The notes under the pieces: model-generated
Seen by the model: the letters and a program-made list of their open reading frames with translations, nothing else
Told to the model about the DNA's origin: nothing
Databases searched by the model: none
Assembly: GCF_037975245.1 (NCBI RefSeq)
Contig: NC_092568.1
Coordinates: 30,437,001 to 30,501,000, forward strand
From: Apostichopus japonicus
Taxonomy: Eukaryota; Echinodermata; Holothuroidea; Aspidochirotida; Stichopodidae
DNA length: 64,000 nucleotides
Direction of reading: 5' to 3'
In this document: positions 582 through 30,900 of the stretch, piece by piece
How the letters are laid out: each line of letters opens with the position of its first letter
Position numbering within the stretch: position 1 is the first letter of the stretch
Position numbers and translations under genes: made by a program

Positions 582-3500
582 CTTTGATGGTCTGGTTTCC
601 TGACTTTGTAAGTGCTGATGTTGCTAATCTGGACACATTCACTCCATCCACTAATCCTGAGGTGTCCACACCATTTCCAAAGTAGGCACCATAGCTCAAC
701 GTCTTCACGCCATCAATGATGTGGTCACCTGTCAGGGTATGCATGTATCATGTTTTACAGTATTGAGATATGCCATATTTAATAAAAAACAAGTTTTGAC
801 GAATTTAAATTTGATAATAAATCTTATGACAGATACGTACAAGAAACATTAATATACAAGTAAGTGATATAAAAGAGACTAAACTAAAAGACTAAAAACT
901 AAACCCCAGCCTATAAGTCCTACAACAGAAGACACTAGCCTAGCACGAGTCATGATGAGCCAAAGTGATACCCAGACAAGCAATTATAATTCTCAATTCG
1001 ATATTTCTCCAGAATATATTTCAAACTTCCTTCCAAAGTTTTTGTACCTGGCTTGGTAATGCAAATCTTTTCAACTCCGGCAGTGGTTTGTTTTAAATTT
1101 ATATTCTTCGTTTCAAGTGTTTTTCAATAATGTTGTCACTTTCTTTGTCAAGTTTATGTTACTTTCTGATATTCTCTACATGTGGCAACGTTCTAATACA
1201 GTTTTACCGTTATGCAGATATGCCACATGTAGTGCCATATGTTTTTGCACTTAACAGTCTGCCAAGGAATATTATATTTGATATGGAATTTCACTGATTT
1301 TTGCTTTTACCTGTTAGAGTGACTGCTTCCACCGATAAGTCAACTCCATCTACTGTTTGTGAGACGTCTACCACACTAGCTGACAGTCCACCTGTAAAGT
1401 TCTTCAACCCAGTCACAGATTGGAAACCTTAACATAGATGAGGAATGCAGTAGACAGGATGTTTTCCTAGCTACCTTTTTTCCTTGTATTTGCTACATTA
1501 TGTTGGTACCATACATACGTATATAGATACATACATAAACGCACACATACGCATACACATATGTATGTACACGCATACAAACACCCATATAGACACGCAT
1601 ACATGAGTACACTATCAGATACTTTAATTCATCAAAATCACACCGCGAATGGTTATATGAGGCTTGGACTTCAAAGGCTTGCAAATTATGGAAATATTAT
1701 ATAGTACTTAAATTCATGTTTTCCTAATATGTTTGCACCTGAGGAGCTCACGGAATGGTCTGTTAGACTTAGTAGTCCAGCTGCTTTGACTAATGGTGTT
1801 CTTATGTCTCAATGACTAACAGTGTTTAGATATATAACCAGCAATGAGTAGTTGCCTTTCAAATATAAAATTTTTTACTTGTGTCCAGATTCATTCACGA
1901 ATGCTATAAATTCGCAACCAACCTTTGGAAGTGATGATTTCGGTCAGATTGACACCGTCTAAAAGACCAAGAACCTCACATTTCCCATCAACATAGAAAT
2001 CAGAACCAAATGTCTTCTCTCCTGATATCTGTTGAATTAATGTAAAAATTGGGGAAATATTAAAAATAATTTTCAACAAAATTACATATATCTGTGAGTT
2101 TAATCTCTGCCATCTAACTACTTGTTAATCTACTTCCCAACTGATGAATATGGATTATCAAACCTGCTTTTTTTCCCTACATCACCATCTCAAAATTAAA
2201 CAAAAGAGCAAGTTTAATGTTTAACTTACATACAGTCATTGTATAAAAGTAATGATTTGACTGCTACAGATATCTTATCTTTATTAGTTTAAAACATTTA
2301 CAAGAGAGGTAATGAGGTGAGAAGAACGTTTAGGTGGTTAAAGTAACTGCTGCACTGGTTAATGCTTATTGGTTAGAGTATAAAACACAATATCCACACG
2401 TAGGAACCATACATAAACTATTGTCAACGACTGAAAACGAACATCAACGGTAAAACCATGTTAAATACTGAATGGAAAACACATAATAAGTATAGGAAGG
2501 AATACATCTGGGATAAGGTTTGCATATGGGGTGATACAATACATTAGATTTGTGGGACACAAAATTTCTGCATTGGTTTAAATGATCCATAACTCTCTAA
2601 TTTGGACGATTTTAAGCCATCAGGACTGAGGAGTATCTAAAGTATGAGTGAGTATTGCTTGGTTTGATCAAACTGATGCAACCAACTCAAAAATACAGCT
2701 TTAAGGTAAACCTATGCAGCTAATTGCTGTCTAATACTAAAATCCTACATCTACTGTATTTCATTATATTTTCTTTCTCAATTCTGCTTATGTTTGTTAA
2801 TTAGAACAGAAGAAACAGCTGTTATGAACAAAAAAATCCTAACCATAAGAAGAAAAAAATAATTTTCACCCTGAACATTTTACCAGGAAAAATTTTCTAT
2901 CAATATTGCAAAATTATGACAAAAGCTATAAAAGGCAGATCCATTTATGGCAATGATGTTAACCATGATAACCATTAAAAATATGAAGAAAAAAACCAGT
3001 CATAAAAGTGATAACCCAGATTTCTGCTGCCTATTAGTGTGCCATTAATAACCAAGTTGCAATCAATACAAGGAATAATTAATGAATATTTGAGCAATAT
3101 AGCCTACAAGTTCAAAAAGATATTTTGTCCAAAGAAATGCAAAATAAGCTGGTAGTTAACCTCAACTTACTGATAGTGACCATAATGTTACCCACGGTAA
3201 CAAACAACAGCTTTGTGTCATAGGGGTAGTTTATATTAAAAGTTACTGGATGAGTAAACCTACCATTCATCTGTTTACTTTAATGAAATTAATAAAAATT
3301 AAAATTAAAAAAATAGACATGGTGCTGTGGTGTGTCCAAATATTAAAATGACTGTGACACTTTCATAGACACTGAAAACCTTACGGTTTCATTTTGGTTG
3401 GTTCTGATTGATTTCTGGCTTAAATCTGACAAATCGACGCCATTTACTGATCCTTGGAGGTCAATATCATCACCAAATGATGGTGATGTCATAAACACCA

Positions 3501-6500
3501 GAGGTCCTGAGAAGCAAGGTGATTAAAAACTATCGGAAAATTAGTTATTGGAACACGATGTTTTGACTGTTTTATGAAAGAATCCTCTGGGCTGATAAAA
3601 ATAAACTTCTTGTATTAATTCAAATGACATCTGATCATTCCATTACTTGAATGGAAGAGAGGATCTTTTTGTTATCTGTCCAGCAAAGACTAATATTCCA
3701 CGAGGGTTTTGCCTCCACTTAATTTGAGATCATAAATGTTGGTGGTCCCTGAAATTGAGAGGTGTATAATATTGGCCACTATCAATGGGTGGGGGAGGGG
3801 GTAAATAAAACTGTGTACTGGTGGTTCAAGTGACTGTACTTTGTATAAATGTAAATATAATCATAAATATAACAAACTGGTCAATTTTTGCATAACTTTG
3901 TAAACTCAGCAAAGCTTTCTTACCATTCAGACTTTGATTCCCAACAATGGTGAGAACATTTTCTGCTAAAGTTGAAACCAGAATGCCATCGACAGTCTCT
4001 GAAGTAATGACGTTACCCAAAACATGGACTCCATCTGTAAAGTTGACTGGAACTGAGGGTAAAGAATGACAAACCTCAAAACATATTTTACAAGATTAAT
4101 TATCATTTGGGAACTAAAAAAAAAAGGATAAAATGCTACTAAATTAAGTGCTTTCTTTTATAACTATTATATATTTGAGAAACCTGCTTAGAAAGTTTGG
4201 GATATAACTGGTGAATATGTGTAAATTCATTCTTAGCATGATGTAACTGTTAACCAATGAAGATAAAACAAAAATGTCTGCCCCTTTGTGTTAACTCCAA
4301 AAATCTATAGCCTGGTCAAACTAAGTTGCCTGAAAGTATCTAATAATATCAAACTTCCTCGAAATTTTAAGTTGATGAGACTTATAACAAAAAAAAATAT
4401 ATATTTCTCTTTGTGAAATTTGGATACCGGCACATTTAAACCTTTCGAATCACACCTGTGAATGATTCACTAACCTTTCTGATTTGAATAATTCCAAATT
4501 TGAAATTATCCAAATAGCTGATGAAAATGACAACTCACCATTCACTGTGTGGTTTCTATCTAAGGTAACAACTTCTTCAGATATGTCCAGATGGTTAAGT
4601 TGAATATTTGCATCAAAATTCAAATTCTGTGTCACTTCGGTATCTTGAGTGAATCGTTTATTACCTTAGATCAAAACAAGAAGCAATAAATCAGCATTGA
4701 TCAGGTGTTTTTAAAATTGTGAATCTAGAATGGAATATTGTGAATCATTTCAACATCATTTTGACCAAAGCATAAATACCAAACAGAATTTTGCATTCAT
4801 TTGGGTGCCTTTCTGATACTTTTTGCATGTGCTTCATAATACTAACATGAAAAAATGTTCAGAATTGCACATAATCATGAATTCCTAGCTACTTAATATT
4901 CAGGTCCCTAGTAAATCTATTGGGATACCCTCTCTTGATTACTTGAAATCACATTGAGTATTAATACATGGTATGTTTTGGCAAAAGTTCTGGAAACCAC
5001 AACCAATTGGGAAATTAAATTGATTCAAGATAAAAAGCACTTTTGTGAATCGTGTGGTCTATAGAACGAATATTATTCTAATCTGCTCTTAATCTGCTTT
5101 CCCTTGGACTTACCTACACTTGCTGAAGCTGTCGCCAAAACTGAGGTTGGGTTTAATTTGTTTGAGCCAGCCACATTGATTCTTAAAATGTTCATGTTGT
5201 TGGGACAGCATTTTGATACATTCTAGGTTACAGCTTTCTATGTGAGGAGCAGCTCCATACAGATAGAATTCAAGGTAAAATTAACTGAGAAAACTAGTCT
5301 ATGCTTATGAAAATCTTCAGAGCCAAAATAGCCAAGCCTAGCTTAATGAGCACAAATTATTCATATTAAATAAGGGAGATTACCGGCTGATTGCACCAAT
5401 TCCTTGGGAATTCATTGTAGATTTGCTTGGAATGTGAACTGGTAAGCTAAGTTGCATACTCTTTTACAAGTAGAAAAGAAGACCACAGTTTTGAAAGTTT
5501 GGAAATCAAGAGCTACCAGCTGCTTTAAAGTAGGAGGCTGGGTGTAATGCTATTTTCAGGAATGACATTGAAGAGCATTTACGCAATGTTAGCAGAAACA
5601 AAACCCAGAATCCAGTACCTGCAATAGTTTGCTCCTTGTCAGTGGTTACAACATCCTCAGATAGATCCACACCGTTGACATAACTGTCTTCGGCTAAAAT
5701 CACGTCTCCATCCACTTGGAGGGATTCCGTAAAGCTCAGTGACCCTTGGATGACCTGGTCTGGTCTGTTGACCCTTTAGAACAAAGAAATAAGAAAAGAA
5801 ATAACCAAATGAATATTGTTAAAACATTGTTAAAAAAAGTTAAAGAAAAGAAATTCATGTAAAAGTCTACTATGGTGGCCTGCAGGTCAAATCCATCTCC
5901 CAAAGGATTTCCATTTGGTTAAAAAAAGAAAGAAAGAAAAAATACAGTTCCCCTAACTTGCACTTACCAGGTATGTAGGCCCCCTATCTATCCTACCCTG
6001 ACAATTGCTCAATCTAAGTACAGTGAGATTATGGTTTTCTCTGACTCTTTGCTCTAACCACTGGTACCTCTAAACCTCAGCAAATTAACTTAGAACCCCC
6101 TAGGGCAGGGGTGGGTTCCTTTTTGAATGAATGGGCCAGATATAAGGGATGAAAAATTGACTGGGCCGCACCTAACAAACGACCTGCTGTTGATTTCAAC
6201 CTGTGATTCCAAGGACTTTCAAGCAATAGGTGTGTGTACTCAATCTGTATTCACAAAAACATAACTTCAATACAGTACAGTTGATATTTAATGGGGATAA
6301 TAGGCCTACCTGACAGCATCATTAGTGCCGATAAATTCTAAGCAGCTGGCTCGTTTTTTGTGATGATGTAAAATAGATTGATTTTTTTCTTTTTCTTGAG
6401 ACATCTCACAGGGCTGCAAAAAAATCACTGGCAGGCCGCATGTGTCCCGCAGGCCGTAGGTTGCCCATCCCTGCCCTAGGGTATATAGCATATGTAATAG

Positions 6501-9500
6501 TAGTGTCTCACCAGACAGAGCTGTTAACGACAGACTCTATCCAAACGTCGTTGACGACATCACTCTCGAGGTTAGTCGTAGAGAGATAGTGCAGAAATGA
6601 GACATTCAGAAAGGTCTTCAGTCCAAAAACATCTTGGTAAAAATCCAATGAAACAGAATCTATGAAATTCAACAAAAGATACAAATCTGACATTAACAGA
6701 TGTTTCAAAGCCCATGTACTTTTTTCTTTTCTTGACATCATGCTCAAGGGCAGAACTTGCCAGCTACGTTTCTTCTTGCTCTTGCAAAAGGCATATTGGA
6801 GCAACTTGTTCATGGATTGTAACATTTTTTTAAGGTTTATACTTCATCCACTAATAGTGACCATGTAAAGAGCATGCTGTTTTAGAATCGGAAGGTCTCA
6901 TAACTGGATTAAGTGGATAAATGCGTTGGCATTTGAAGCAATTATGTTCCGGGTTCGATATAGTTCGTCATAGTTAGGTACGTTTTTCAAGAGCAATCGA
7001 CTGTTTCCCATAAGCCCATGCAGGTTTCTCCCACATTTGTTGTCTCTTAAGCGTCGTAAAAATAACAGCAAGTTATTTATAATTATTATAACCATTATTA
7101 GTTCCCAGCCATATGATGCAAGGAATAATTCAGTGTTCAAAACTTCACGTATCAGTTCCGAAGGCCCCTCAACATTGTCCCATATGAAATACTATGGCTC
7201 TAGTGTGCAAACACTGCTAAACGGTTTTGCACTCTTATAGCAGTATGCCCATCATACATAGCAATCTGCGAGGCGATACCCGATAAATTAATCTCTGTCA
7301 TGTGATTCAACTAACTATTTTCTGATTTTTCTCAATACTTGGGAGGGGACAAAAAAGTCAAAAAGTGGGGCTGGATCCAACAGAAATAGAAGGATTTCTC
7401 ATCAACCTTTCTGTCGGTGATGTGGAAATAAAGGAAATTCACTAGAAATGGCAAAAAAAGAAGAAGATTACCATTTAGAGTAGCATTGATGATGGGTATT
7501 TCACTTTCGTGTTGTGTTAAATTAGTTGCTAGGTAACCAAGACTGTCCTTTCCATCTGGACCATTGCCGTATAGATAAGAATCTAGAAGAGAAATATTTA
7601 GAGGGGAAAAACCCAAAACGGGGAAAAATATTCTTGACAAAAACAACAGCATGTAATATATGACCAAGTATGATATATTCTGTTGATCTGATATCAAAAG
7701 TTTTGTATCATGAGACATGATGCTAATGATTGTGGAATAATGGGGGTCCTATTGTGTGGTGGAGGAAGCTGATTGGTGGAGGAAGCTGATTGGTGGAGGA
7801 AGCTGATTGGTGGAGGAAGCAGATTGGTGGAGGAAGCTGATTGGTGGAGGAAGCTGATTGGTGGAGGAAGCCCAATGTGTGTACATGTTAGCGACATGTC
7901 TGAACATGGACATCTTACTGTCATCAAATATAAATTACAGGAAGTGAGGTCAACGTATCTCTGACCTCATCCGCCACCACCTCGATGTCTCTGACATGTA
8001 TATAACACTCAAAGCAACAAAACAGCTGCAGTACACCTATACCGTCAGTGTCTCCATTGAAAAAAAAAAAGTAGTAACTTTCACAAGATATGATAACAGA
8101 CATATACTTACGATTGACCTTGATGGTATCGACATCCAACGAGCCATTCACGATCAGCTTAGGGAAGAATTTCGTTCCGTAAATAATACGATCACCAGAG
8201 AGTCTGATGGAATCTTCTAGGAGTTGTTGTGCCTGAACCACGTCACTGTCTAGTGCATTTAATGAATCCTAGGAGATACGACAAATATCCAGTTTAAACC
8301 CAAACAGGCTTTAAGTTTTGTTTGTGTTGTTTTAAATAATCATAGGTACGGCCTAGAGTTGACTGACATTGAAAGAAACAGTATTAGCCAAAAATATATG
8401 TCTATTATGGTACTACCAAAACCTACTAATAATTAAAAAGCATGTTGTCATGGATACAAAATGAATCCAAGCTATTACCGCTTCGCTTCTTTATCTCTCA
8501 AAATTTGTGGTTCTAGGATGTCCTTGTTGTTTAAATTAAAGCTTGTTAAAAAAAGGAATTTTCTTGCCTGTAAACATTTTGTAAAAATAGAATGTTAAAG
8601 AAAGTTTTTTTTTTATTTGTAACTTGATTTATTTAAATTAGTGATCTGATTATTCAATATATTTAAACTTCTCAGCAAAAATATTCACTTTGATGTTAAT
8701 AGCAAAGGAGAAAAGAAACATGATATTTTATAGAAAACTGATGTCCACAAACAGATCTAATACAAAAACCGGTCCTACCCAAATCCTGCAAAAATATTGA
8801 AAAAAAAGTTGGAAAATGGTCATACCACGATATCATAATGTCTTCTCCTCTGCTGACGACCTTGGATGGCGATGGGATCGGGAACTTTCTTTGTGGTGTA
8901 ATAGATTTCAAACATTTTGACATAATTGGTGAAATAAGGACCACTGACTCCTGCAAATAGCCTGTTATCCGAGGCTCTGAATGCATAGGACGTACCATTG
9001 ACAAAGTGACCTACAGAGAGAGAGATTACAACACCCAATATTAAGTCACAGAATTGCTTCAGAATCCCAGAAATTTATTTTGGGTTCAAATGATACCACT
9101 GTCCCAGGCAGAAAACAAGATAAAAACAAAACAAATTGATAAAATATTTTGGTAACAGAAAAAAAAAGCCAAATGATTTTCACTCAGATATAAACATTTT
9201 ACCATGAATATTTTATGACTATTTGCCCAAATCAACTCCTAGTATATTAAGGAATGAGTCATATTAGATGCAATATTAAAACCATGTAGTTCCTTGTAAT
9301 TTCAGACACACCAAAAAGATGTTAATGCCCGCTATTTTTTTGTGTGTTGTTGTTGTTGTTGAACTGCTGAAAAAGAGGGAACTAAAATGGTCATCACTAT
9401 TAAACAGCTGTACATTAACCTAGGCTGGAATCAAAGAGTGTACATGAACCTAGGCTGGACTCAAAGAGGGCAAAATATTTACTAATGAAGTAGGGCCTTT

Positions 9501-12500
9501 AGATCTTTTTATATCCTTCTATCTTCATATGAGACCCAAAGGGGGGAGGTGGGGATCTCATGCTATTAGTAAGGTCTTTGTTTATAATACACTTGTTTAT
9601 TTCAACTAAGAACAGAAGATTCATCTTGAAATAAGTTACTTAAGATAAGGATAACCAGATTTGCTATAAGGAAAAAGAAATGAAAAAAAAAAACTTTCCA
9701 CCAACCTGTGTGGTTGAGGGCTTCAAAGAGATCTTCTCCGTAATTATACTCGTAAAGTAAAAAAGTATTGAGCGGTGCCCCGTAGGACAACGTTAGCAGC
9801 ACTCCATCTTGACAATTTGGGGAATCTATCGGACGCCAGGATTGGATGTTTTCTACTTCAATGACTTGGAAAGTCTCAAAGCGATAGCCTGTTAAGAGAA
9901 AGCAGACCCCAGATTATAATCAATTCCTTGATTTGTCAAACTGTGATGGCAGAGTGGATGCATGGACACACATGGACATTGTATTTTATGGTAACCGCCC
10001 CGATACTGTTCGTCTCAGCAATGAACGACTTTGGATGCAGCGCCCTGGCACCGTTCAACGGCTGCGTATCAACATTCAAGAGGGAAGTGACTAAGATACT
10101 CCCTCCCCTCTCCCATCCCACCCTTCCCCCATCTACTCCATCCTCTCGTCCTTCCACATTCACAGTATTTCTACTAAATCCCCCATCTTTGCTTGTCACT
10201 TCCATTACTTATAAAATCCATTGTTACAACCCTCAGAGTGAATCTCCACAGTTACCTAACCCTTTCAGTACAATACCCTTCAAATTTTCGCATCTCCCTA
10301 GTTTGCTAGTGTCTAATTTTGCTCCATCATTGTCCAATTTAGTTGTCTGTCCAACTGTCTCTCTCTCTGCTTGTGTCATTAATGTATTTTTTCATTTCAG
10401 CTAGCCTCCGAACATCCTGCTAGGATCAAAATTTCAGGCCATTAACTTTTATAGATTTACCTACACAGGCTTTCTACAGTAGATAAGCAGTTTGTTAAAA
10501 CAGGTTTTTTCCTCTTTAAAACAGATGGTGTGATACCTAATCTAATTCTTAAAAGCATAATATACTCCTGAGAAAGAAAGTAAAAAAGTAACAACAGGAT
10601 ATGAAAAATCCCTTAACACAAATCTTAAAAAGGAAGACCCTAGAGTTTCCGCCTATATAATAACAAGTCATTAAAAATTTCTTCTAATCCAGACAATTTG
10701 TTGTCAAAGGAAACACTTACAGTAGTTTTAACAGATTATGTTTAATAGAGGAAGTGTTTGCTTAATTACCATTCCATTTGAAAATGTGAGAATGATTGTG
10801 TTGAGCATTGGTTAAGATGATGTAGCTATTGAATCCCAAAGTAAACTCTTCAACAGCCACACAGCCAGCAGGAAACAGTCTGAGAGAAAGAGAAATTATG
10901 AGGACACATTAATAAAAAAGACAAACAATCATTATGACAATCATAGGCGTAAGAGGCGGACAAAATTTTTGTGAAAATTCTGGGAATATGCTGAGAATTT
11001 TTCGGGCACCTACTGAAAGAAAAATCATTTGGAATGTTGTGTTTTTCAATGGTTAAACTGATATTATTATTATCATTATTATTGTAATGACTTCCCCAAT
11101 AATTATAACCAATATGGAAGGGTAATAACACGGAAAATGATTGTATGTTATTTGCATGTGATGTAATAACCGATGCATGCCTATATGATATGCACATTAA
11201 TATGTTGAACGCGCGCGAAGCGAGCAAAAATTTTGGTTATATTTTTCGGGCAAGTCGTTACAGCCCCCCCCCCCCCCCAAATCAAATTGGGCTCCTACGC
11301 CTATGATGACAATTCTATTTCAGGGATTAATTTATCAGGTATCGCATCACAAATGATATGCAAAGAGAAACAGGCTCAAATTACTTTATGAGACGAATAG
11401 CAGTTCTCGTTAGAGAGGAATCTTAGTAATTCGTAACAGACAAATCCATAGTATTCAAAACAGCTACACAAAATTTGAACTCTTACATTATTCGCTGTAT
11501 TTTGTGTTGGATATTAACCATCGCACCATTATGACCAACCTATGTGATGTTCACACCAAGACTCAAACAAATTCAGGATTGAACAATATTTTCTTTAGGG
11601 CAAGTTAGAAGTTGCCTTGGATTTTCATTGAAAACTGCAGTGCACCTGGTCGTTTCACCAGCTTTCAAAAGGGCATCAAGGCAATTCTACAAAATTTGAA
11701 AGGCAGAATACAGGAGCTTTTCCCCATTTTTCTTCCACTTATATGATTAAGTTTATTTGGGGAACAGAGAGACATGTCAGATAGATAACAAGAGCATCAA
11801 TGACGCAGTATCTCAATACTGGAAGTTTTAATTTTGATTCCTAATTTCAAATCTTTGCTCTGTCTCTACAATTATCAATATCAATAATGGTACAACAAAT
11901 ATATAACTTGCATTTTTGCTATTTGGCACGAATAGTCTCTGCAGGTTACACTTTATCCTGCTAGTCTTGCCTTTAGCGCTCATTGTCTGTTAGTCGAAAG
12001 AACGACGTTGCAAGGTTTAGTAATGTCATAGAATATTTTAAGAACTTGTTTTTTATGTGGTATCTTTCATCTTAGGTCAGTCTCTGTTGGACTTTTTGGT
12101 CATATAGTTTGACGTCAATGACAACAGCCAAATTAGAAGAGGCGAACAACTCGACCATATTCTCGATGCCTGCCTTGAGAGCTAGGCCTATTGACCTACT
12201 GTATGTTACTGTAGACTGTAGTGGTGACTACCATCAAAACTGTGTCCACTTCTAGATATCAAAACAACCCACGTTTTTCCATCTCAATTTTTCGGACATG
12301 AAGATTTCATGGATTTATGACTTGGAAAAAATAATGTAAAAGAAGATTACAAGTTTTTATATGCAAGTGATGGGTGGCCTCCTCTTCCCCTAATAGCCAC
12401 CTCAGTTCCTCTCCATTTTGTTATTTTATTTTAATTCTTTTTACATTTGATGTCAAACATTACAGGTTCAAAAGAAAGCTAAACATACTTCTTATAACCT

Positions 12501-15500
12501 TATACATCTTATATCCTTATAAATAAAACATAACCTTATACAATTTTTATAGTCTTATCAAAGTTGTGATGCTATGGCCGGCTCCTCTTTTATACGTACC
12601 CATCAAACAAACTTACCCTGGTCCTTCCTAGGAAAAGCTGTCTGAACACCAGTACAATGCTAATGTGGCTATCACTGAAAGCCTAATAGGCCTAGGGGCC
12701 TAGGCCTATATATATATTTTTAAATGCACTAAGCCTACATTAAGTAGCCTTCAGAAATACAAGAATGTGTATACGTAATTATACAAAATACATGAAGGGC
12801 AATCAAACAAACTTATCATGGCCCTTGCTCTGAAAAGCTACCTGAACACCAGTACTGTCCTTAAATGGATGTTACAAAAACGAAGGCCTAATATAAATTA
12901 AATGCACTACGTAGAATTCAGCAGTACAGAATGTAATTAGCATGCAATACACTAACACCTCGCGTACCTAACTACAGAACAGAAAATTGTTCGCGAGGGT
13001 AGCCATTTTCGTATATCTAACATGTAGCTGTTATGAGTCATAGCCAATCTGCTACAAAACAGACTTGGGGGCGGGGCTTAATCATCAAAAACGGACCTTT
13101 TTACTAAAAGTAGGGGCGGCAGCTCAGTGTTGTTTTAAGAAAGAAAAATCATTTAAACATCAAATAAAGCAAATAAAAGCCATTAAATGTCATATACATG
13201 TAGTAAAATTCTTATTAATACCTACCTGTAAACAACAAATGAAAGTTTAAAATTTTAATAAAATATATAATACATAGGACCCTATCTTAGACGATACCAC
13301 TGTTGAAAGACAGTTCTATTCTATTCTCTTTCATAAAACATAAGTTTTGGAGCGTGTGCAAAACAGGTCTGCCAAAGTGTGTTTTCAGTCCAAATTGGCC
13401 CGATTTGGACATAAATCGGTGAAAAAGTCACAGAATGAGATACAATTCTGGAATAAAAAATAGTAACTTTTGTTGGTCTATATGATATATTCTTGCTCTG
13501 GAAATTCCAGAGAAAAAGAACTTTGTTTGAAGACGCTGAAAAATTTTTAAGAGAAGAGAAAGTCCCACTTACTGTTACAATATCTCTATACATGTAATGT
13601 ATTGAGATAAAAACAGAACAATCACACAGGCTCAACCATGTTCTACATTTCCAGCTACTGCATGCTTAGCAGTTTCCTGGTGCAAACACATTACAGATCC
13701 AGGAGTTTGACTGTTATGATTTTAATTTTGATAATTAAGTTTAATGGTAAAAGGTCATTATTTGGATACAGACTGCAACTTGATTAAAATAGGTACGGTA
13801 GTTGCATGCCATATAACATGTGCATGTTTAAATGCAGTACCGAGAGTGGTACAGACAACAATGGCAAATTCATATTACCTTGGTAAAATTGAGCCCAGGT
13901 TCACACAATATCCGATACCTGCTGTTCTAACTGATAACGAGGAATATCTGGCTAACAATATTCTTGCACTGTTTATGAACTATAATCTCTACCTTCGGCT
14001 GTTACAAAATGTGCTACACACTGTACTACACACATCGTAAAATTTTGAAAAACTGAACCACTGTGTTTGTAGGTCAACAGCATTAATTATGGAGACCAAA
14101 ATAATCCCAGAGCTGTGTGTCAACTGAAACATGAGTACAAAACCAACTTATACAATACTGCATTTTGCAAGATGCCTGTCACTGAAAATTAGAATACCTC
14201 CTTGTCTCACAATGTGGTTTTAAGTTGTGTACTCTTTCCATGCATCTTGAATTTTTTTTTTGACTATTTCTCTACATCCGTGAGAGAATTCTAATAACCA
14301 CAGGTAACCAAACAGTGACAGTTGGTACTCATGCAATCCACAGGTTAAAGTTAAGTTTCACATGCCAGAACTAGTATATTATTTTTAAACTCTGACCATG
14401 TGCCCACTTATAAAGACATGCTATAGATCTCAATACACTTTATGTCATTTTAAATCTTTTCTTCCAGGACTAATAGGTAGCCACCATTCATTTTTTGGTA
14501 CCGGAGCATTTTCGTTCCCAAGTCTTAAGACCCTCATTTTGCCTCGTGCAGTACTGTATATGCTGGTAGCTACATAGATTGTTTTGGACAGCTAGTGGTT
14601 GATGGAATTATGTATTGTATTTTTTAGATCCTCCTGCAAGCAGGAACTTGCGAAGAGGCCATCATTGGCTTATCAAAGCCGCAAGTTGACCGAAATGAGT
14701 CTCTTAGACTCATATTTAACGTCCATCATTATGAATTGTCAACAACTCTGTAACTGGAGGACATACATTAATCTGGAGTGACTTGAACTATCTGGAGTGA
14801 CTTGAATTATCTGGAGTGACTTGAATTATCTGGACTTTGAATTATCTGGACCATCAAATTATCTGGACCATATGAAGCCAGCTGAGCTGTGTGTTGACTG
14901 AAACAACAACACACCTCAACTCATGTTTAATAATAATGAGCATTAGTTGGTTTCAAGTTCAGAACAACCCACATATATTTTCAGTTCAAATAAAAAGATA
15001 TAATGAACATGCTGGGAAAAATATCATCACTACTCACATACTAGAAAGTCAAAGCAACTTCAAAATCTGCAAATATATGGTAACACAATACAATTTTTAC
15101 TTGCAACGAACACATACTACCTCAAGCTACAGACAACAGAGCTATTTTATTCATAGACTTGTTTAAAATAAACTTCAGTAGTATTTATATAAGAGGTGTG
15201 CAGACTTACCTTCACCACACTTATATCATGAAAGTATCTCAAACATAAAAGTCAATATCACATACAAAAATAACATATGGATACATCGCGTCAAGTTTCC
15301 TCCTTTTGCTTTTTTCAGCGAGAATGCGTAAGCCGTACAAAAATCAGGACAGTTGTAAATCCACTCACTCGTGATGTTTCTTGAACTGCAATTGCCTTCT
15401 GTCGTACTTCCAGATGGTGGTCATGTTCAGCTTCTCTGCAAACACCAAGTAATATTTATTCTCCATCTCCAAGGGAACGACCGACTGAGGGAAGTGGGTC

Positions 15501-18500
15501 CTGATAGACTGATGAATCTCAAACTGAGAACCTGCATTTGAAAACAAATGTCTCGTATGCGAGTAAAGATTTCATTATCCGGATATATAATGATGATACT
15601 GCACGTGACGGGGGGTTGATCTCTGGTTTATACGAAGAACGCAATCGACCAGTATCAACGCAACAGGCTCACAACAAGTCGAACCACCCGTTTCCTTCTA
15701 ACAACATTTATTTTTAAGATAGAAAGCCAACGTTTTTTGAAATGTCTTCCCTACTCATATCTGGGTGATATCAAAATAATTTTGCTGTGAGCCCTGGTTT
15801 CACACTTATACAGTATACTTATGCAAGTTACAATGTTTCTAACTGGAACCCTCTAGCACAAAAAAAAAACCTGGCTATGAAGTATGGGTATCGATACCAA
15901 CTTTAAGGCTGGATCGTTCAGTTGCTAGATCGCTAGATGGCAGGGCTTTTCACCCTCTGAGGTCACTGCTTTGAAACTGTTTTAGACACGTATTGATTCG
16001 CTCTATCCCAGTCAGTTTCGAGATATATATGTCATCCCCCCTCACCCAAAGATGAAGAGAGGCTTACGTTTTACGTTCCATTTGTAGAGGACAGACCTGA
16101 CCCAGCCAAGGTAGGTGTCGTTGGCACATCTTGCCAGAATGAAGTACAGATCAGTATCAAGAACGAAGGCACTTGTGTCTGTCACATCCATAAGACTGAT
16201 TGTCTGGTTCAACTGGCAAAAATAAATTGACACAATTTGTGTATCAGTTTTCAAAACAAAATTGAACAAAAAAAAACCAGATGTAAATTCTAAGAGATAA
16301 ACAGCTAGAGCTATGTAAGGCAATAAAAATTTGTTTCTTCACAACATTTAAAATGAAACTTGTGACATTTTAGTCTCTTGACACAACATAACTAACGACA
16401 TTCATTTCCATGGTGTCATGCTGATTTAGGGGGGCTGTAACGGCAAGTCGTTACAGCCCCCCTAAATCAAATTGGGCCCCTACGCCTATGTTCATCACAG
16501 AAAAGGTAGGTGCAGTTACACACATTACTGGCATTACCTGTGTACCCTCAAGTTCTCCCTCACCTCCAAAGACATGATCTTCATTTACCATCATTAGAAA
16601 CTGTTTCTAATCAGTTGTGGATGTTCATAGTTGGCTTTTATGAAAATTTAGATTTGGAAAAAGGACCTTAGATGAAAGCTATCTATTTCTTTGTATATGC
16701 ATTAAAGCAATAGACATAGTGTGTATTGAGATTATGTCATCTATCTACTGTACCTTAATTACTTGTAAACCCTCTGTTCGGCTACGTACGTTCTACAGGT
16801 TATGGTACAAAACGAGAGTGTACAAGTGTCTACGACAATGTTTAACTCTTCCATGATGGACTAGTTGATGTATTTGAAGTTTTTTACTCATTTCAGTTAA
16901 AGAAAACAAAGTTTACTTATATGTCTTCTGCTTATATGGATATTTGAGTGGATGACGACATTGTTACTTATTATGGAATGAAATATTTCCACACTATTAG
17001 TTAAAAACCTCATTCTCAATATCATGTCCCTAACTCAAGATATGGTTGATTAGAATGCATGAAAGTGATTTCACTGTCTAAACCTTTGATTCTCCCCTGG
17101 GACTGATCACAGTTGGTGGTCTCCAAATGTTCTTTAAAAGTTTGAATTTTCTATCATAATCTCCTTGTTACTTTATTCTTGAAACCCCTGATACATTTGA
17201 ATTGCCTGCTGCCCTGTCCAGGTTCTCTATATCTAGAATTTTATCAAAATGCAACAGTTTTGTAGGAATATTATTTTCCTCTGTGAACAAGTAAGTTAAA
17301 CATTACAAAAATAGACGATCACATTTTCAGCTGAATTTGAGATGATGATGTCATTTCACACTGTTGTTGCCAGGAGCATTCACAAAAATACCCACCAAAT
17401 TTACAAAAATGCATGATCATCGCCATAGAAATTGCTAAGAGGATGTGACTTGGACCTATTTAGATGCAGAAAATGTCCAGAATGTTATAAAAGCATTCCA
17501 CTTCTGCTACTGGAATATCCTCAAGATCTCTGTAGGAGTGTTAGCTCAGTGGTTAACGCTGGTGTCTTTCAATCATAAGGTCCCAAGTTTGAGTCACTTC
17601 AAGATTAATGTATGTCGTCCAGTTACAGAGTTGTTGACAATTCGTAATCATGGATGTTAAATATGAATCTAAGAGACTGACTTTGGTCAGCTTGCGGCTT
17701 TGATAAGCCAATGATGGCTTCTTCCCGAGTTCCTGCTTGCAGGAGGATCTAAAATACATACATCTCCAACTGTACCACCAGTTCTCACCTCCAAAGAGTA
17801 ATTTCCGCTGTTCTGAATCTCTTGGAAGCAGTAGAGTTGTATTTCTGTCCTTGTGTACAGAGCAATGATCATGATATTATATCTATCGATGGGTTGAGTT
17901 CTGGAAGGCAACCCGAAAATCTTGACATGTTCTACTTCAACTGGAGTGAATAAAGATAGTGAAGGATAGTGGACTTTGAGTGAACGAAGGCAAATCGTCG
18001 AGAAAATGAACTACAGGTAATGCACGATCACGATATGAATTATTCTTCACAATGATGACGAGGGTTTAAATAATCATCTGCCTAAGTTGGAAGGGAGGAT
18101 TCATAACATGTAAATCATATGTAATCAAGAATAATCCTTCCAACTTTTTTAATAATGTATATAAGTTGGTCTGGATATTGATGTTAACTTTTGGGTTTCC
18201 TTTTAACCTCTTGGTACTTCTAAAAAAATTCAGATATATTGTTTTCTGGCCTTAGAAAGACGATTGGGTGTTTGAGTTAGTGACTGATGGATTAAAAAGA
18301 TATTTATATCTTATCAAAGTTGAATTTTACAGTTTTATCCATGGTACTACTAACTATGGGAACAATGGAAGACAATACTTTGTGGCTATGGCAAAATCAT
18401 TGTCAAATATAATTACCAAATTCAATCACCTTAAACCTAACTTTACCATAGGAGCCATCTGGCAATAAACCTGATATTTTTTCAGGAGGATAGTTACTTT

Positions 18501-21500
18501 TTCAACTTATAAACATTTAGCTATAGTGCTTGTTTCGGGGAGGGGGGGGGGAGGTGATGAACTAACAATGAATATGAAAAAATTGAATTTTGCTAGTTAA
18601 GGAAAGTGTTCAGGAAAGAAATCCCTCAGAATTGACTAATTCCTTCTTAAATTCTTTGTGAGTGAAAACAGACATGGTGGTGCAATAGTGGTTTCAAAAT
18701 ATTTGGTAAGGTGGCATTCGAAACTGACAGTTGCTGTTAATGATGTGGGTACATTACAAATGAGGTAAATCACTTCACTTTAATGCATGTTAAAACCAGG
18801 GGTGCGAACAACCTTTTAGTTATGGAGGGGCGCCTTAGATGTGAAGTCTTCGTGTCGGACAGGTATCTGGGGAGGGGGTTCTCTTTCAGTTTGAGAAATT
18901 TAGGTTCAATGAAATGGTGCTTATATGCAAATTGGTGATACATTTTGCAACTATTGAAACAATGTAGACCCTTTGTTAAGGTTGTCTAGTACTATAAATA
19001 CATATTATGTTAATTTATGTACGTTATATTTTTATTATTCTGTCCATCAGTGGTGCATGGAGGAGGGGTGGGGTTGGTTTGAACCCCCCCACCCCAAGAA
19101 ATATACATGGTTGCATCCCCGGTTAAAGTTACTGAGCAAATTGGTACCGTAAATAACAGTTAAAAGTAGCATTTAGTTTTTATAAAAAGTTCAAATGAAT
19201 ATTAAAAATTACCTGCAACACTGGCAACTGATGTCAGAAATTCTGCTTCAAATGGATCTTGGTCAATATCGAACATATACACATGAAAATAACCCGAGTC
19301 AACATTGTAGGTGACCAAAAAGTCCTCATTTTTGTATTCAAAATATTCCCAGAAGGCTAACGTGTGCCTCACCTCCCTGGATGGCATGTACTGGAAACCA
19401 AGAATCTCGACCGCTGCAACGAAAAAGAAAAGAAAACGCCACATACAGTATGCCATAATTGACAGTCATACAATCTAGTTTCTTATGATACCCCAGAATT
19501 CAGAGATATTGTCTTCATGATCATAAATTGTTTTGTAAGGTGTCAGACCTGTGCCAGACCCACCAAATAAACAGACAAAGGCAGTGGAAGAAGGTTCAAA
19601 TCGAGATGAGGGAAAAGATTTTTTTAGACAAAAATAAGGGTACCTCTTCATTACACAAATAGAAACAAGTACAGTACATTTATGAGAGAAAAAAAAGACA
19701 CTTGGAATTATAAAAAAAAGACTCCCCCCCCCCTCCCTCCTCAGCATTGGTGCTTCTGTGTAAATATGTTCTTTGCAAGTTGTAAATACTGTAGTATGAC
19801 AACAAAACATTGATTACTTTACATACTTCTGAAAACTCTATTACTTTGCATATTAAGTGAATATAGGTTTATATTCACCAGTTTCCATGGAAGAAACATT
19901 TGTTTACATTCCTGTGGTAAAGTATGCTAAAGTGGTGGAAGTGGAGAGAATGCAGTGGACTAAGGCTGTTAATGAAATATAAGGTTATCTCATGTAAAAA
20001 AAAAAATGGAAAAATGTTTGATGCACAGTAGGACAGATGTAAACCAACCAAACCGAAAAGTGAAACCTTTACAAAGAGAATTAGTTGCTTTGCCAGTGTG
20101 CAACTATGACTTCAAGTTCACTTTTGGTAGAATATCACATAACTTCAACTGTCAATATTTAAAAAACGGTACCTAGGAATTGAATGCAAATTTCACCAGA
20201 ATGCTAAGATTATGTTCCTCTTTAAAGCAGCATTTTGCGTTTTGTCGCCGTTTTCCACTTTTTTGACAAGTCCATCAAGTTCTTTACATATATGAATCAC
20301 AAAACAGCAAACTAAGATATTAGCCAAGTTTTTTCCCTGCCAAAAGCTTTAATTGGCGAGTAATTAAGGACATTTGCAGATAATGAGAAAAGTGTCCTCC
20401 AACCAAATGCAAATTTAATATTAATCACATACAGTTCCCCAACCCACTAGTTTAAATTCAACCAATCAGAGATGCAGGTTTAGTTATGAGCCGTTGCTAA
20501 AAATATATTCAAAACGTCTACCAGCGAGCTGGACTCTAACAGCTCCCTGGTACGACTGCCATAGACAATCTACACAATCAAGCATGGTGTTGTATTACGT
20601 ATTGACCAATGACGTTCATAGCCTTTAAATTATCATATTATGGGCGAGGTTTATTAGGATCCCAACGGAAAATATGAGATACGGAAAGTTGAAAGTTGAA
20701 AATTTTTCAACTGTTATATATGCAACCATTTGAAGTAAGATTTGAATAGATAAGCTAGTTATGTATGTCGTTATGGCCTCGTGGAATCAGCGAGGTTGAG
20801 AAAAACCATAGAAAAGGACACAAAATGCTGCTTTAACATATTAAAAAGAAATTTTGACCTGGACCATTCTTTTAAAGTGTCTGTTATAGAAATGGTGGTT
20901 ATCATTTGATAGGGTCGGTGTATATTGTTTCAACTGAGCTCAAGTCTGTGCTTGGGTTTGTAACATGAAAACTACAAATCAAAAGCTCCAATGTAGTGTT
21001 GGGAAAAAATTAATTTGGCTGAAATTATTATTGTTCATATACAAGAGTTGACATTTTCCAGAAATTCATCAACCAGTACCACATGTTTTCAAGAAGCTTC
21101 ACTGATGGAAATTTGTGTATTAGAAACTTGCTCTTGGTAGTTTGCAATTTGTTAAGCAAAAAATTTTCATTAGAAGAGTGACTCCAATATGGTTATGAAT
21201 GTTTCATTCTTCAACAAACTGCAATGGGTAGGGGGGTATTAGAATCAGCCACAGACAGCTTAAGTTTAGAGACCTAAGGATCAGGAAACCTTACAGTACT
21301 TATTTGAGACCCTATCCGTGTTAGATCATGGATGAACACTGGCTTATTTCAAGCCTTCTCTTTCTCAGAGGATGAGGCAGGGGTGTGAATTTGCTCCCAT
21401 TCCTGCTTCCGGGACCACCATTTAACGTCGCAATCCAATGGACCAGAGTGTTTGGCCCAGCATCTGACCACTTTCTCAAATACTAAAGTAGGCAAAGGCA

Positions 21501-22826
21501 TCCCATTCGACATCACTTAAAGGGTGGGAAGACTCGCGCACAAAGAAACGTCTCATGCCGGTAATCTGACCTAGTTTCAAATGAGGTGTAACAGAAGTGT
21601 TAGACACCACCATCGATCCCAGAAAATACACACACAGCTTGCTACCGTCGGTAATTAGACACTAGTGTATAGTCGATACATACAGCTATGGTCAATACCC
21701 ACAACACAGTGTACATAGCAGCGTGGACATCTCAGGTCTAGATGAAAGATAACAAGGTATCACGTTTCATTACTGTCTGCATTTTGTAGCGATAAGCAGA
21801 AAACTTCACATGCAGGTAACACAAAGTAAACCGTTTCAGAGCGCAGCACACGGTTTGGGGCGAGTCTTCAATGCCTTTAACATGTACAACATAGTTGGTA
21901 ATTAACACTGTGTAATAAAAGAGTGAAAGAAAGGATCAACTTTATATTTTTTTGCAACTTACATTCTCTGTTGCCTACACTTGTCTGAGGTACAAATCCA
22001 TGCCTTAAGTTAGCTGGATCTGGTATTTCATCTCTCTTTATTCTCTGGGATCTGCTTTCTTTAAGGCTATAATAAGAAAGGAAGATTGAAATAACACAAT
22101 ATATATATTATAAGTAAACTAAGATCTACCGTACTTTACACTGTATCGATTCTTTTTCAACCAAACAAACCACAAACAGTGTGATAGCCACAGAAAGAGG
22201 TATTTCTTGCGTGAGTGAATTTGTTGAGAAGTGGAATATAAATGAAAAGCAATCAACTACTACCAGCATTAACTATATACTCAAGGGCGTAGGAACCGGG
22301 GGGGCTGGGGGGGCGCCAGCCCCCCCAGTGAAAAATGTGGAGGGGCGGAAGTATCATTCCGCCCCCCCAAGTCAAAAAACCCCTTTTTCATTTCCAAATG
22401 AGAAAAAAAATCTCATTTGGAACACCAAATTGCATCTAAGGCCAGGTGAAAATACAAAATTTAGTTTACAAAATGGAGTGGGTGTTGAAGTGTGCTATAT
22501 TGCACCAAATTGCATCTGAGGCCACCTGCAAATGCAAAAAAATCCAAAGGGGAGGGGGACACCCCCTCCCCTTAGACCCCTCCCCCAGGCCGGCCATCAG
22601 TCTTCAGCCCCCCCACTCAAAAGTAACTTCCTACGCCACTGTATATACTGTATATATATACTCACTTGTGTAATTTTTCTTTCAATTCCAGTACAATAGT
22701 ATCTAAATGTACATTCAATGAATTCAACTCTCTTTGGAGTAACTGGTCATCTGCACTCAAACTTTCACCATTCAGCCCTTGAGCAAGCCCCATGAGGAGG
22801 AGAAGGCTTGCAGAAAAACAGATCAT
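582..22826 (-). CDS. Secreted EAR-repeat (EPTP) propeller protein with C-terminal VDGVDLS repeats, 3' end outside window
   Basis: Nineteen coding exons on the minus strand, in transcript order: 22826-22666, 22066-21963, 19413-19213, 17940-17789, 16212-16068, 15531-15369, 10879-10770, 9888-9706, 9010-8826, 8268-8112, 7582-7472, 6659-6512, 5773-5619, 4664-4539, 4052-3924, 3506-3385, 2028-1923, 1427-1311 and 728-582. All phases join, giving about 907 codons, and the last exon ends in phase 1 with a donor, so the gene continues past the left edge. The start MICFSASLLLLMGLAQG lies right after an acceptor, so an upstream non-coding exon is expected; it gives a typical signal peptide. RIKR at residues 62-65 is a furin-type site. 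Residues about 89-468 hold seven EAR-like repeats, and residues 469 onward hold the repeats described separately. EAR repeats form a seven-bladed beta-propeller in LGI, TSPEAR and ADGRV1, where they bind partner proteins outside the cell. Function here is unknown; the best label is TSPEAR/EAR-like. The donor at 1922 (gttggt) is weak. Introns are rich in repeats. Confidence 0.85.
6106..6473. mobile_element. Non-autonomous hAT-type element, exact 8-bp target duplication
   Basis: The termini are CAGGGGTGGG on the left and CCCATCCCTG on the right (inverted, one mismatch). The flanks carry CCCTAGGG twice (6098-6105 and 6474-6481). The subterminal sequence (GGCCGCATGTGTCCCGCAGG) is of the type common at hAT ends in animal genomes. 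No transposase is encoded. The element ends 39 bp past the donor of exon 6659-6512 of the EAR gene. Confidence 0.85.
7000..7100 (+). repeat. SINE 3'-tail fragment (CGCTTAAGCGTCGTAAA family)
   Basis: CAGGTTTCTCCCACATTTGT followed by CTTAAGCGTCGTAAAAATAA matches the tail of the full SINE at 44.76-45.06 kb and of the 55.7-kb copy. Only the tail is present here. Confidence 0.6.
7758..7872. repeat. 17-bp minisatellite, seven copies
   Basis: The unit GGTGGAGGAAGCTGATT repeats seven times with almost no variation (one T-to-A change in a unit), and the last copy is truncated. There is no spacer variation, so it is a direct tandem array and not a CRISPR. It lies in an intron of the EAR gene between exons 8112 and 7582. 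Confidence 0.9.
10942..11305. mobile_element. Non-autonomous hAT-type element, exact 8-bp target duplication
   Basis: It starts CATAGGCGTAAGAGG and ends CTCCTACGCCTATG, and both flanks carry ATGACAAT (10934-10941 and 11306-11313). The inner part holds a run of about 16 C residues beside the right end. Related sequence recurs at 16,423-16,490 (right end only) and 59,812-60,090 (left end and body), so this is a family. It lies in the intron between the EAR exons 15369 and 10879, just upstream of exon 10879-10770 in transcript order. Confidence 0.85.
12600..12960. repeat. Diverged tandem duplication, period about 200 bp
   Basis: ATCAAACAAACTTACCCTGG at about 12,602 recurs as ATCAAACAAACTTATCATGG at about 12,802. 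Each is followed by GAAAAGCT, 'CTGAACACCAGTAC' and, later, AAATGCACTA. The two units lie head to tail in an intron of the EAR gene. Confidence 0.6.
14240..14580 (+). pseudogene. Duplicated fragment of ACTR10 (exon 5 plus flanking intron)
   Basis: The 68-bp block 14276-14343 matches ACTR10 exon 5 (28372-28439) with the same length, no indels and an open frame that translates with similar residues (NQTVTVGTHAIH against [12 protein letters not shown]). Homology continues into the downstream intron (TTTAAACTCTGACCATGTGC is identical in both) to about 14,580. The upstream pre-exon AC and a degraded branch-point-like TTTGAC are also recognisable. The donor has changed from GTAAGA to GTTAAA. No other ACTR10 exon is nearby, so this is a DNA-level segmental copy and not a processed pseudogene. 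It lies antisense in a large intron of the EAR gene. Confidence 0.85.
14619..14793 (-). repeat. SINE-like repeat, tRNA head missing
   Basis: This is an inverted copy of the 17.53-17.76 kb repeat, sharing the body (AGCAGGAACTTGCGAAGAGG against AGCAGGAACTCGGGAAGAAG on the opposite strand) and ending before the tRNA-like promoter. It is followed by a short array of units like ATCTGGAGTGACTTGAATT up to about 14,875. The open frame across it is a repeat artefact. Confidence 0.65.
16422..16490. repeat. 21-bp perfect inverted repeat on a hAT-family end fragment
   Basis: Arms 16422-16442 and 16449-16469 are perfect reverse complements around a 6-nt loop (GCAAGT). The core of the arms is GGGGGGCTGTAACG / CGTTACAGCCCCCC. 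The sequence that follows, ATTGGGCCCCTACGCCTATG, matches the right end of the 10,942-11,305 element. It looks like a palindromised remnant of that family. Confidence 0.75.
17527..17760 (+). repeat. tRNA-derived SINE with A and B boxes
   Basis: TAGCTCAGTGGTTAACGC at 17,543 is an A box and GGTCCCAAGTTTGAGTC at 17,579 is a close B box, spaced as in a tRNA gene. They are followed by an unrelated body of about 160 bp. The 14.6-kb copy shares this body in opposite orientation. The SINE touches the last exon bases before 17,789 of the EAR gene, only 29 bp from that donor. Confidence 0.7.
18797..19121. mobile_element. Probable hAT-type element with imperfect target duplication
   Basis: Left end CAGGGGTGCGAACAACC and right end GGTTGCATCCCCG are inverted relatives of each other. 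The flanks GTTAAAAC (18789-18796) and GTTAAAGT (19122-19129) match at six of eight positions, which suggests an older insertion. The region is G-rich on the plus strand and has no coding capacity. Confidence 0.6.
20226..20832. mobile_element. TTAA-flanked element (piggyBac- or Kolobok-like), nested in another repeat
   Basis: The inverted termini AGCAGCATTTTG and CAAAATGCTGCT are flanked on both sides by TTAA (20222-20225 and 20833-20836). TTAA duplication is the hallmark of piggyBac and Kolobok elements, but the ends do not show the usual piggyBac CCC. The host sequence on each side (20,090-20,221 and 20,837-20,880) matches an uninterrupted copy at about 61,750-61,935. A one-ended relative lies inside the foldback element at about 51,850-51,920. 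No transposase was found in it. Confidence 0.75.
22282..22641. mobile_element. Non-autonomous hAT-type element, exact 8-bp target duplication
   Basis: The element begins CAAGGGCGTAGGAA and ends TTCCTACGCCACTG, so the termini are inverted repeats. It is flanked on both sides by TATATACT (22274-22281 and 22642-22649), an exact 8-bp target-site duplication as made by hAT transposases. The interior has G-runs and C-runs next to the ends and no transposase reading frame. It sits 24 bp beyond the donor of the signal-peptide exon (22666) of the EAR gene. Confidence 0.85.
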
Positions 22827-27900: not shown

Positions 27901-30900
27901 TCACCAAGGAAAAAAACACAGCTGTCAGCCAATTATTTTATTTCCTTCGCTTAAAAGAAATCAAGTTCAATGTACCAGGATCTCTAATTCTAACATGTAA
28001 CTGGTAACATAGTAGCCCAGTATTAAGTTATGATGCACACACAAAAAACTCATCTCCACTTTGAAATTACCATTACAGCTTAAACAATGATGAATTGACA
28101 CCTGAACAGCTTCATTCATTTTTCGATCATTTCTCTTATGTTTTAGAAAATTTATCACCGGAAATAGGTGGTTCACTTCTGCCCTGCCCTTAAGCAAGGA
28201 ACCACCCTTGTTCACTACTGTATGGCTTCGCATCGAGTTTCTCGATATGTCACTTTATATTTTAGAAGATTTCAGTCAGTGATATTAGAATATCTTCTTG
28301 GCTGATTATCATTTAATTCTGTGTACAGTATATCACACTGAAATGAATCATTCTCTTTAACTGTTTCCTACATCTGTGAGGGAATTCCAATAATCAAAGG
28401 CATTCAAACAGTGACAGTTGGGGCTCATGCCATCCACAGGTAAGAAAGTTTCTCATGCCAGAAGTAGTTATATTATTTTTAAACTCTGACCATGTGCCCA
28501 CTTATAAAGACATGCTATAGATCAATACACTTTTTGTCATCTTAAATAATCTCTTCCAGGATTAAGTTATGGTTGATCAATCCCTTTATATTAGGAAGTG
28601 TTTGGAAGGGGGGCGTTAAGTATCCCATTGTGATAGTTGCAGTACTGTATGGGCTATTGACTACACAGAAGCGACATCATTCTAAGGGCAGAAACAAGAG
28701 TAAATGTGACTTGTGAGAAAGCACATCTGCATCAGCATCCTAGCAACCTGAAAAATAACATGCTTTTCCAGAGCTTTTAGGACTGCTTAAAGATTGTGTT
28801 CAAGGAATGTAATTATTTAAGGGTACTGACAACATGAATATGCAGTGACTTGCAGTTGTTTACAACTTTACAGGAGCACCGATTGCAGCTCAAGAAGCTA
28901 TGACCTGCATGGTCAGGTTAATGGAATCTGGTATAGAATGAAGACACACATTCATCTCATGGGAGCATTTACAGTTAAATGTTTGGGGTTGTTTTTAAGA
29001 TGCACAAATTTTTGAGGATACAGGTTTATGATGCCACAAATGGTTCATTGTTTCCACGAGGTTACTACAGTAGGCTTCCCAGTCAAGATTCCTAGTTGAT
29101 ATAGAAAAATAGACTTATCCATAGTTATTATGACACATTCTACCAGATTTTGGAAGGCTTTGAAGGATGGCATCAGGAAATTGGGATTGAAAATTGCCGA
29201 TTATGTTAGGCTCATTGGCTACATAATAAAGGAAGAAAATTTTGATTTCTAGTAGGACATGTACAGCTTACACAGTTAGGATGAAAAAGTCCTTCTGTCA
29301 GCAAATTACTCAAGTGATTAGGATTGTTAAAAAAAAATTGTCAGATTCATTGGTTACTTTGTTGGATCAGAAATCACTTTTTGTTTGAACTGTCTTCATT
29401 ATTTGGATCTTCAGAAATCTGGCAGCATTATTACAAGATCAAGCAACATTAACTGTAGACGGAGAACCGAAGCCGCTCACATCTGTGATGTCCTCCCTGC
29501 CAGACCATGTTATCGAAGATATCAAAGGTATGAATGTGTTAATCTCTTCTTAGCAAAGATTATCACTTAAGTTAGGATTAAGCGTAGTGAAGATACATTC
29601 AGACCACCTATAGTCTAATAAACCCAGTTAGTTTGGCGTGAATGTCTTGTTATTAAGATTAAGTCCCATTTGTAGATAAAATATGCTTCTATTAGTGTTA
29701 TTTTTGTCACTGAGCACACATGTTCAAAATATTCCATGTAGTGTTAACTTGAAAACAAATTTACCCTTCCCCATTACATTATATGCTAGGATGGTATTTA
29801 AACACATGCAAAGAGTTTCAAATTGATACATGTATCACTTTGAAATTTGCTCTTTAAAAATTTGCAAAGTCAGTATTGGGCTCCACATTACTCCAAATCC
29901 ATAAGCAATTCCTTTCTTCCCTATATCTGGGATGTATGAAGTACTGGCTGTGATCTCTGGTCATATGATAGTCTAGTTATTGTGACGTGTGATAAGCACC
30001 ATCAGCAAAGAAAGGTGTTTATTAGTGATCGCATCCAAGTTACTGAGGGCTGGATGGCGGAGAACACAAATTATAGGATTCATAAGTTTTAGGTCTGTGG
30101 TCCAAATGCTGTTCTAGCCAACAATTTGTTTGTCTTTCAGATTTTCTGCATCATTGTCCAGACCATTGTCTGTTCAAATTTTCATATTATTTGTACATAC
30201 TGTAAATTGCATAATTTCATTATATTTTGCAGTAGTTCAGGTCTGTCACAAACAGCATTTTAGGCTATCTGAGAATTGTATTATTATAAAAAATGAGAAG
30301 AAAATAAACTTCATTTCTGACTTTCTGAGTCGTATTAGTAATAAAGGTTCCTAAGTGGGACCTAAGATGTCTCAAAAACAAGAGGCTGTCAGGATATTTA
30401 TTATGCACAATCCTTTTAGTGCAGCCTTGAGAATCTCCACAAAGAAAAACAAACATGGCAAAATGTTAAAAACAGTTGTGCTAGTTTGTATATATGTTGA
30501 CTATCGTTCAATGCTAAGCAAAGCGTATCTTTCTTTCTTTTGATCTTAACAGTTCGTACTTGTTTTGTAACCAACCTGGAGAGGGCTAAGAGTATACAAC
30601 AAAGTAATCTACAAAATGATGATACAAAGGTAAATTTCATCTTTCTTGCTGTTCCCTGTAGTAACGTCTGTCAGTCAGTCTGTGTGTATGTTTCTGCTGG
30701 TTTGTTTGCTGTGGATCCCCAGATAGGTGGTACCTTGAATGAGTATAGGAGATCTAGGAGTATAAAACATTAAAAAATGTTTAAAAGTTTGTGATAAAGT
30801 CCTATTTGACCAATGACATCTCCTGCGATGCAGAACAGAATTACCTCGAGAATTACTTGCAAATGTCTGTCCATCTTGTGTAAAACTACTCAAGTATATC

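Follow-up and report, generated by a model that had tools for sequence, protein, structure and literature searches.

The question raised by this locus in Apostichopus japonicus is what kind of protein carries an EAR (EPTP) propeller in front of a long row of repeat units, and to which fold these units belong. In the window (the whole stretch of 64,000 nucleotides that was analysed), 19 exons on the minus strand, from 22826 to 582, were joined into a single open reading frame that encodes 907 residues, the protein length that had already been given in an earlier note on this DNA. All 18 introns of the model are GT-AG with compatible phases; the exon ends were chosen by hand, from the DNA sequence alone. 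The encoded order is signal peptide, linker, EAR/EPTP propeller and ten repeat exons, with the 3' end open. A splice donor follows the last unit exon (U9), so the gene continues past the window and the C-terminus lies outside it.

Exon 1 (22666..22826, minus strand, as are all exons of the gene; residues 1-53) encodes a signal peptide, recognised by eye, and the start of the linker. The linker exon (21963..22066) contains RIKR at residues 62-65, N-terminal of the propeller, which we take to be a furin-type cleavage motif. The head consists, by eye, of seven exons and seven blade-like pieces: EAR exons a (19213..19413), b (17789..17940), c (16068..16212), d (15369..15531), e (10770..10879), f (9706..9888) and g (8826..9010), the last with a basic RQQRRR (residues 458-463) ahead of the stalk. 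In residues 1-468, Pfam identified PF03736 (EPTP) in four stretches with 47.8 bits against a cut-off of 21 (E 1.5e-12), and residues 89-456 matched the sequence of the solved LGI1 propeller (E 3e-5), which bears out the EAR assignment of the earlier note. Its count of seven EAR repeats agrees with the exons and pieces seen by eye, but Pfam recognises EPTP in three of the seven pieces when they are scanned singly, those of exons a (E 0.035), c (E 0.022) and e (E 0.0012). Exons b, d, f and g gave no Pfam match alone, and exon d lies within the LGI1 match. Among known EPTP proteins, LGI carries N-terminal leucine-rich repeats, TSPEAR an N-terminal thrombospondin-type laminin-G domain, and ADGRV1 a Calx-beta array with a seven-helix membrane part. 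In residues 1-468, nothing besides EPTP was found by Pfam at E up to 10, neither N-terminal leucine-rich repeats nor a thrombospondin-type laminin-G domain. Likewise, the 907 residues, whose C-terminus is beyond the window, contain no leucine-rich, laminin-G or Calx-beta domain and no seven-helix membrane part according to Pfam. The protein thus resembles LGI1-4, TSPEAR and ADGRV1 in the EPTP match and the sequence match to the LGI1 propeller, but differs from them in that the propeller is N-terminal and is followed by phage-neck-like units. A review of EPTP proteins names the LGI proteins, GPR98/VLGR (ADGRV1) and TSPEAR (PMC3691968).

The stalk is encoded by unit exons U0 (8112..8268), which holds the first neck-like motif, SGDRIIYGTKFF, U1 (7472..7582), U2 (6512..6659), U3 (5619..5773), U4 (4539..4664), U5 (3924..4052), U6 (3385..3506), U7 (1923..2028), U8 (1311..1427) and U9 (582..728). 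Units U3 to U9 are clear, and each of them, when left out and scored with a profile of the other six, exceeded all 5000 of its own shuffles. U0 is marginal under the seven-unit profile (E 3.8), and the degenerate U1 and U2 were not found by it. When this profile was run against all stop-to-stop segments of at least 20 residues in the window, the segments of U3-U9 were recovered with E values of at most 8.8e-14, as the construction of the profile entails, and no other segment came below E 0.64. The turn (D/N)GV(D/N)(L/V)(S/T) is present in five of the ten unit exons (U3, U6, U7, U8, U9), altered in U4 and U5 and absent from U0-U2. The earlier description of ten exons each carrying the turn was therefore too strong; seven units are clear and three degenerate. 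The recurring N-glycosylation sequons that it had pointed out were confirmed: the stalk has 15 where 6.1 would be expected (none of 5000 shuffles reached 15); the EAR part has seven against 2.5 expected (41 of 5000 shuffles). The stalk contains a single cysteine. The earlier note had also supposed that the stalk can change in length through gain or loss of phase-1 exons. The placement of introns in several units is in keeping with this, since a symmetric 1-1 phase was found in five of the ten unit exons (U1, U4, U5, U8, U9). On the other hand, the other half is not symmetric phase 1 (the U2/U3 intron is in phase 2, the U6/U7 and EARg/U0 introns in phase 0), and the units are 15-31% identical to the first aligned unit. 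The conserved unit motif ...GNQTI-x-G-x-K-x-F... spans introns. A candidate extra exon at about 1733-1798, seen by eye, was excluded, as there is no unit in it. Within the U0/U1 intron, at 7750-7870 of the window, a short tandem array with a unit of the type 'ggtggaggaagctgatt' was noticed by eye.

The fold of the units was approached with a nine-row unit profile kept in unbroken register and searched against the PDB at E up to 10. Twelve sequences were matched, and the best seven are baseplate or receptor-binding proteins of the TP901-1 type (E 4.1e-5 to 5.8e-5), one of them being a chimera with phage p2. Next come two 'Major structural protein 1' chains (7.2e-5), which we take to be from phage Tuc2009, and then orf22 of 9efk (0.0019). 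With longer flanks, the identical ten sequences headed 32 PDB matches (2.4e-5 to 4.8e-4); seven of these ten best are again the TP901-1-type baseplate or receptor-binding proteins (E 2.4e-5 to 3.7e-5), and the eleventh match is a superoxide dismutase (E 0.2). The reversed profile, run as a control, gave seven sequences, none from phage, with a best E of 0.32. A profile cut at the exon ends, which breaks the motif, matched four PDB sequences and no phage receptor-binding protein. The stalk searched as one sequence gave three PDB matches, none of them phage (the best an acyl carrier protein, E 0.54), and no NCBIfam family. The Pfam family BppL_N (PF18338) scored 17.4 bits on the stalk, below its cut-off of 25.8 (E 0.0032), with U6 and U7 as the best stretch, and it matched two of seven single unit pieces (E 0.028 and 0.03). 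In PHROGs, two weak matches were obtained with the stalk, 1.2e-4 to a family of unknown function and 7.9e-4 to a virion structural protein, and the units taken singly reached three families, each by one of the nine units. The earlier note knew no named domain for the units; that none fits them is not supported, as their profile matches the beta-prism neck of TP901-1 and, weakly and below the cut-off, BppL_N.

The aligned residues 34-60 of BppL correspond to its linker and beta-prism neck. In BppL of TP901-1, the linker is described at residues 31-39 and an interlaced trimeric beta-prism, with a regular six-residue repeating motif, at 40-63 (PMC3893620). Under the unit profile this neck scored 30.2 bits, and 27.3 to 31.6 bits with any one unit dropped; the maximum for shuffled necks was 15.4 bits (5000 made, 4629 reported). 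A comparable pattern is present in the animal units, whose hexads agree with the six-residue motif of the BppL neck. With three hexads taken from each of the seven units, position 2 of the hexad is hydrophobic in 20 of 21 cases, and in 13 of 14 when the opening hexad of every unit is set aside; neither count was reached by any of 20000 shuffles, with the register picked by eye ahead of the shuffle test. In a register-free periodicity test, period 6 was raised (equalled or exceeded by 29 of 5000 shuffles), as were periods 2 and 3 (by 75 and 64 of 5000 shuffles, respectively). The gene thus shares the sequence of linker and beta-prism neck and the six-residue motif with BppL (PF18338; PDB 3u6x, 4hem, 2f0c). 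However, BppL has a single neck with a receptor-binding head, whereas the animal gene has about ten sequon-rich units, introns and an EAR head, and its units fall below the Pfam cut-off of the BppL_N family.

Arrays of the same element were found in phages. Among 50,697 phage records, 20 were matched by tblastn with the real units at E up to 10, the best being a weak match to gp31 of Streptomyces phage Wentworth (E 6e-3), and a consensus probe gave four matches, the best at 0.1. Wentworth gp31 (1885-6216) has 1443 residues and is annotated as hypothetical. Nine BppL_N stretches were identified in it (8.7e-42), and the animal profile found eight domains above 10 bits; among 500 shuffles, 268 had a domain reported, and in no case did it reach 10 bits. 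This protein is probably a fibre. In IMG/VR, ORFs located by consensus probes hold as many as 13 domains that score above 8 bits, and repeated neck elements with a recurring VNGTGVLLSG spacer occur among these ORFs. By comparing animal and phage units profile to profile, a match of 96.5% probability was obtained (E 8.4e-10, 28 columns), in which the phage side consists of 11 of 57 printed units picked by eye; the reversed control gave 0.2%. Ten of the 11 chosen phage units are matched by BppL_N. The VDGVDLS half is less shared, since most phage matches begin after it, and in some phage arrays VNGTGVLLSG stands at roughly the position of VDGVDLS. The motif spacing is 39-46 residues in the animal stalk, with 72 for the first pair, and in the printed phage arrays the spacing goes down to 34-50 residues, with many spacings far longer. 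Wentworth gp31 and the fibre-like IMG/VR ORFs therefore have arrays of the neck element in common with the animal gene, but they are phage proteins with another turn and spacer and often with copies far apart. The earlier note had considered that the units might match a known domain found in the same arrangement elsewhere: the arrays do occur in phages, but the phage arrangement is without the propeller, and no EAR match was obtained when the phage collection was searched. With the real stalk, a pattern-based search of viral contigs gave no relative. In bacterial genomes, two of 388 pattern stretches are relatives of a consensus probe (one alphaproteobacterial, one from a Prevotellaceae MAG), both in proteins that appear fibre-like by eye, with one or two motif copies. 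The Erwinia phage Hallingskeid fibre (tblastn E 0.5) was rejected as a relative, the unit profile giving no support, and 16 Caulobacter records at E 4 to 5, eight of them labelled acyl carrier protein, were taken as chance. In viruses of eukaryotes, BppL_N modules, often with Peptidase_S74, are described in the fibres of polinton-like viruses and are said there to form trimers (PMC12220804). These modules are what the animal gene has in common with them, but theirs are viral fibres, whereas here the gene is spliced and begins with a signal peptide, its C-terminus being beyond the window.

We consider it fairly probable that the gene encodes a secreted or surface protein in which a trimeric, phage-neck-like stalk carries an EAR head. 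The N-terminal seven-bladed propeller would bind a partner, and the glycosylated stalk would be a row of phage-neck-like units, each made up of a turn of the (V)DGVDLS type, a linker and three or four strands of six residues (x-hydrophobic-x-G/D/N-x-x). In this model, three chains would interlace their strands into a rigid beta-prism, like those of phage receptor-binding proteins. It would mean that the stalk is a homotrimer that presents three propellers. By analogy with the phage proteins, we infer the homotrimeric state and the rigidity; ligand binding by the head is likewise an inference, and the C-terminus, outside the window, may either anchor the protein or leave it free. An animal may thus make a stiff fibre out of the type of part found in the necks of the fibres by which phages hold on to bacteria. 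The AlphaFold model of one unit was poor (pLDDT 65, pTM 0.31) and almost without secondary structure; a single-chain model of one unit decides nothing here, because the proposed part would need three chains. Trimerisation through a coiled coil, in the N-terminal linker or in the stretch before U0, appeared suggestive by eye and was rejected, the heptad scores lying within those of shuffles (equalled or exceeded by 3272, 5735, 9231 and 5558 of 20000 shuffles).

The units could instead be a monomeric extracellular beta repeat, e.g., a beta-solenoid, with the likeness to the phage neck due to convergence on a short turn-strand motif. The stretch in common is indeed short at 28 columns, the curated cut-off of PF18338 is missed, single-sequence searches are weak or empty, and left-handed beta-helices also show hexad patterns. 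However, the phage neck proteins head the PDB lists of the profile and the animal hexads agree with the neck of BppL. Moreover, no hexapeptide-type family was found on the stalk or on the seven unit pieces at E up to 10 (HMMER filters can drop weak matches), and the left-handed beta-helix was rejected as a candidate. We therefore regard a monomeric beta repeat as unlikely, though it retains some weight. Much less likely still is that the EAR exons and the unit exons belong to separate transcripts, i.e., two genes wrongly joined. The model was made from sequence by hand, and its introns are long, up to 4.5 kb, the longest being within the EAR part. But the EARg/U0 intron at the junction in question has 557 bases and GT-AG sites and keeps the frame, which is also open across all 19 exons. 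The gene model, EPTP, the LGI1 match and the unit profile support the arrangement given in the earlier note, with the propeller as the head and the repeat stalk after it in the same frame.

A further reading concerns processing. As RIKR and RQQRRR stand directly before and directly after the propeller, processing on its two sides may be possible, judging from the motifs. A furin-like protease would cut at both and release the propeller, which would then serve as a ligand in solution while the stalk acts separately. RQQRRR, however, matches the furin consensus in what we take to be a loose form only, and we think such cleavage rather improbable. It is compatible with the trimeric phage-neck-like stalk preferred here, and both can be true.

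As for the origin of the stalk, a phage-fibre trimer domain is already described in the animal protein MYRF (PMC3742443). The reuse of such a domain in animals would be common to both cases, but MYRF is a transcription factor bound to a membrane and carries an endosialidase chaperone, whereas neck repeats are here combined with an EAR head. We tentatively hypothesize, at clearly less than even chance, that animals took the neck repeat from a phage or polinton-like virus, divided it so that roughly every unit has its own exon, and joined it to an EAR propeller. A gripping fibre of a virus would thereby have become a glycosylated trimeric surface or matrix device with three propellers. The repeat may also have moved in the reverse direction or have had two origins. 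In the literature searched, mostly open papers judged by their titles and the beginnings of abstracts, no report combines this neck repeat with an EAR propeller, and further animal relatives may well exist. The peptides VDGVDLS, GVDLSEL, NGVDLSA and LVDGVDL are also absent from the literature searched, most subscription papers being outside it. With the match to the phage neck, an unnamed animal repeat gains a testable fold and oligomeric state, and the EAR propeller appears in an architecture unlike that of LGI, TSPEAR or ADGRV1. The stalk possibly adds to the case of MYRF a further trimer module of the phage-fibre type in animals. If this is true, it becomes askable how and when animals acquired parts of phage fibres.

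Some other open stretches were observed in the window. An open stretch on the plus strand (49551-49841) appears by eye to be part of a homocysteine methyltransferase, Pfam giving nothing for it, and one on the minus strand (27967-28254) has a weak Pfam match to APOBEC1 (E 0.005), which at 17.4 bits stays below the cut-off of 27. Two adjacent ORFs of 320 residues on the plus strand, 38433-39395 and 39953-40915, resemble nucleotide-diphospho-sugar transferases (PF03407), the former at E 0.02, under the cut-off, and the latter at E 6.2e-19.
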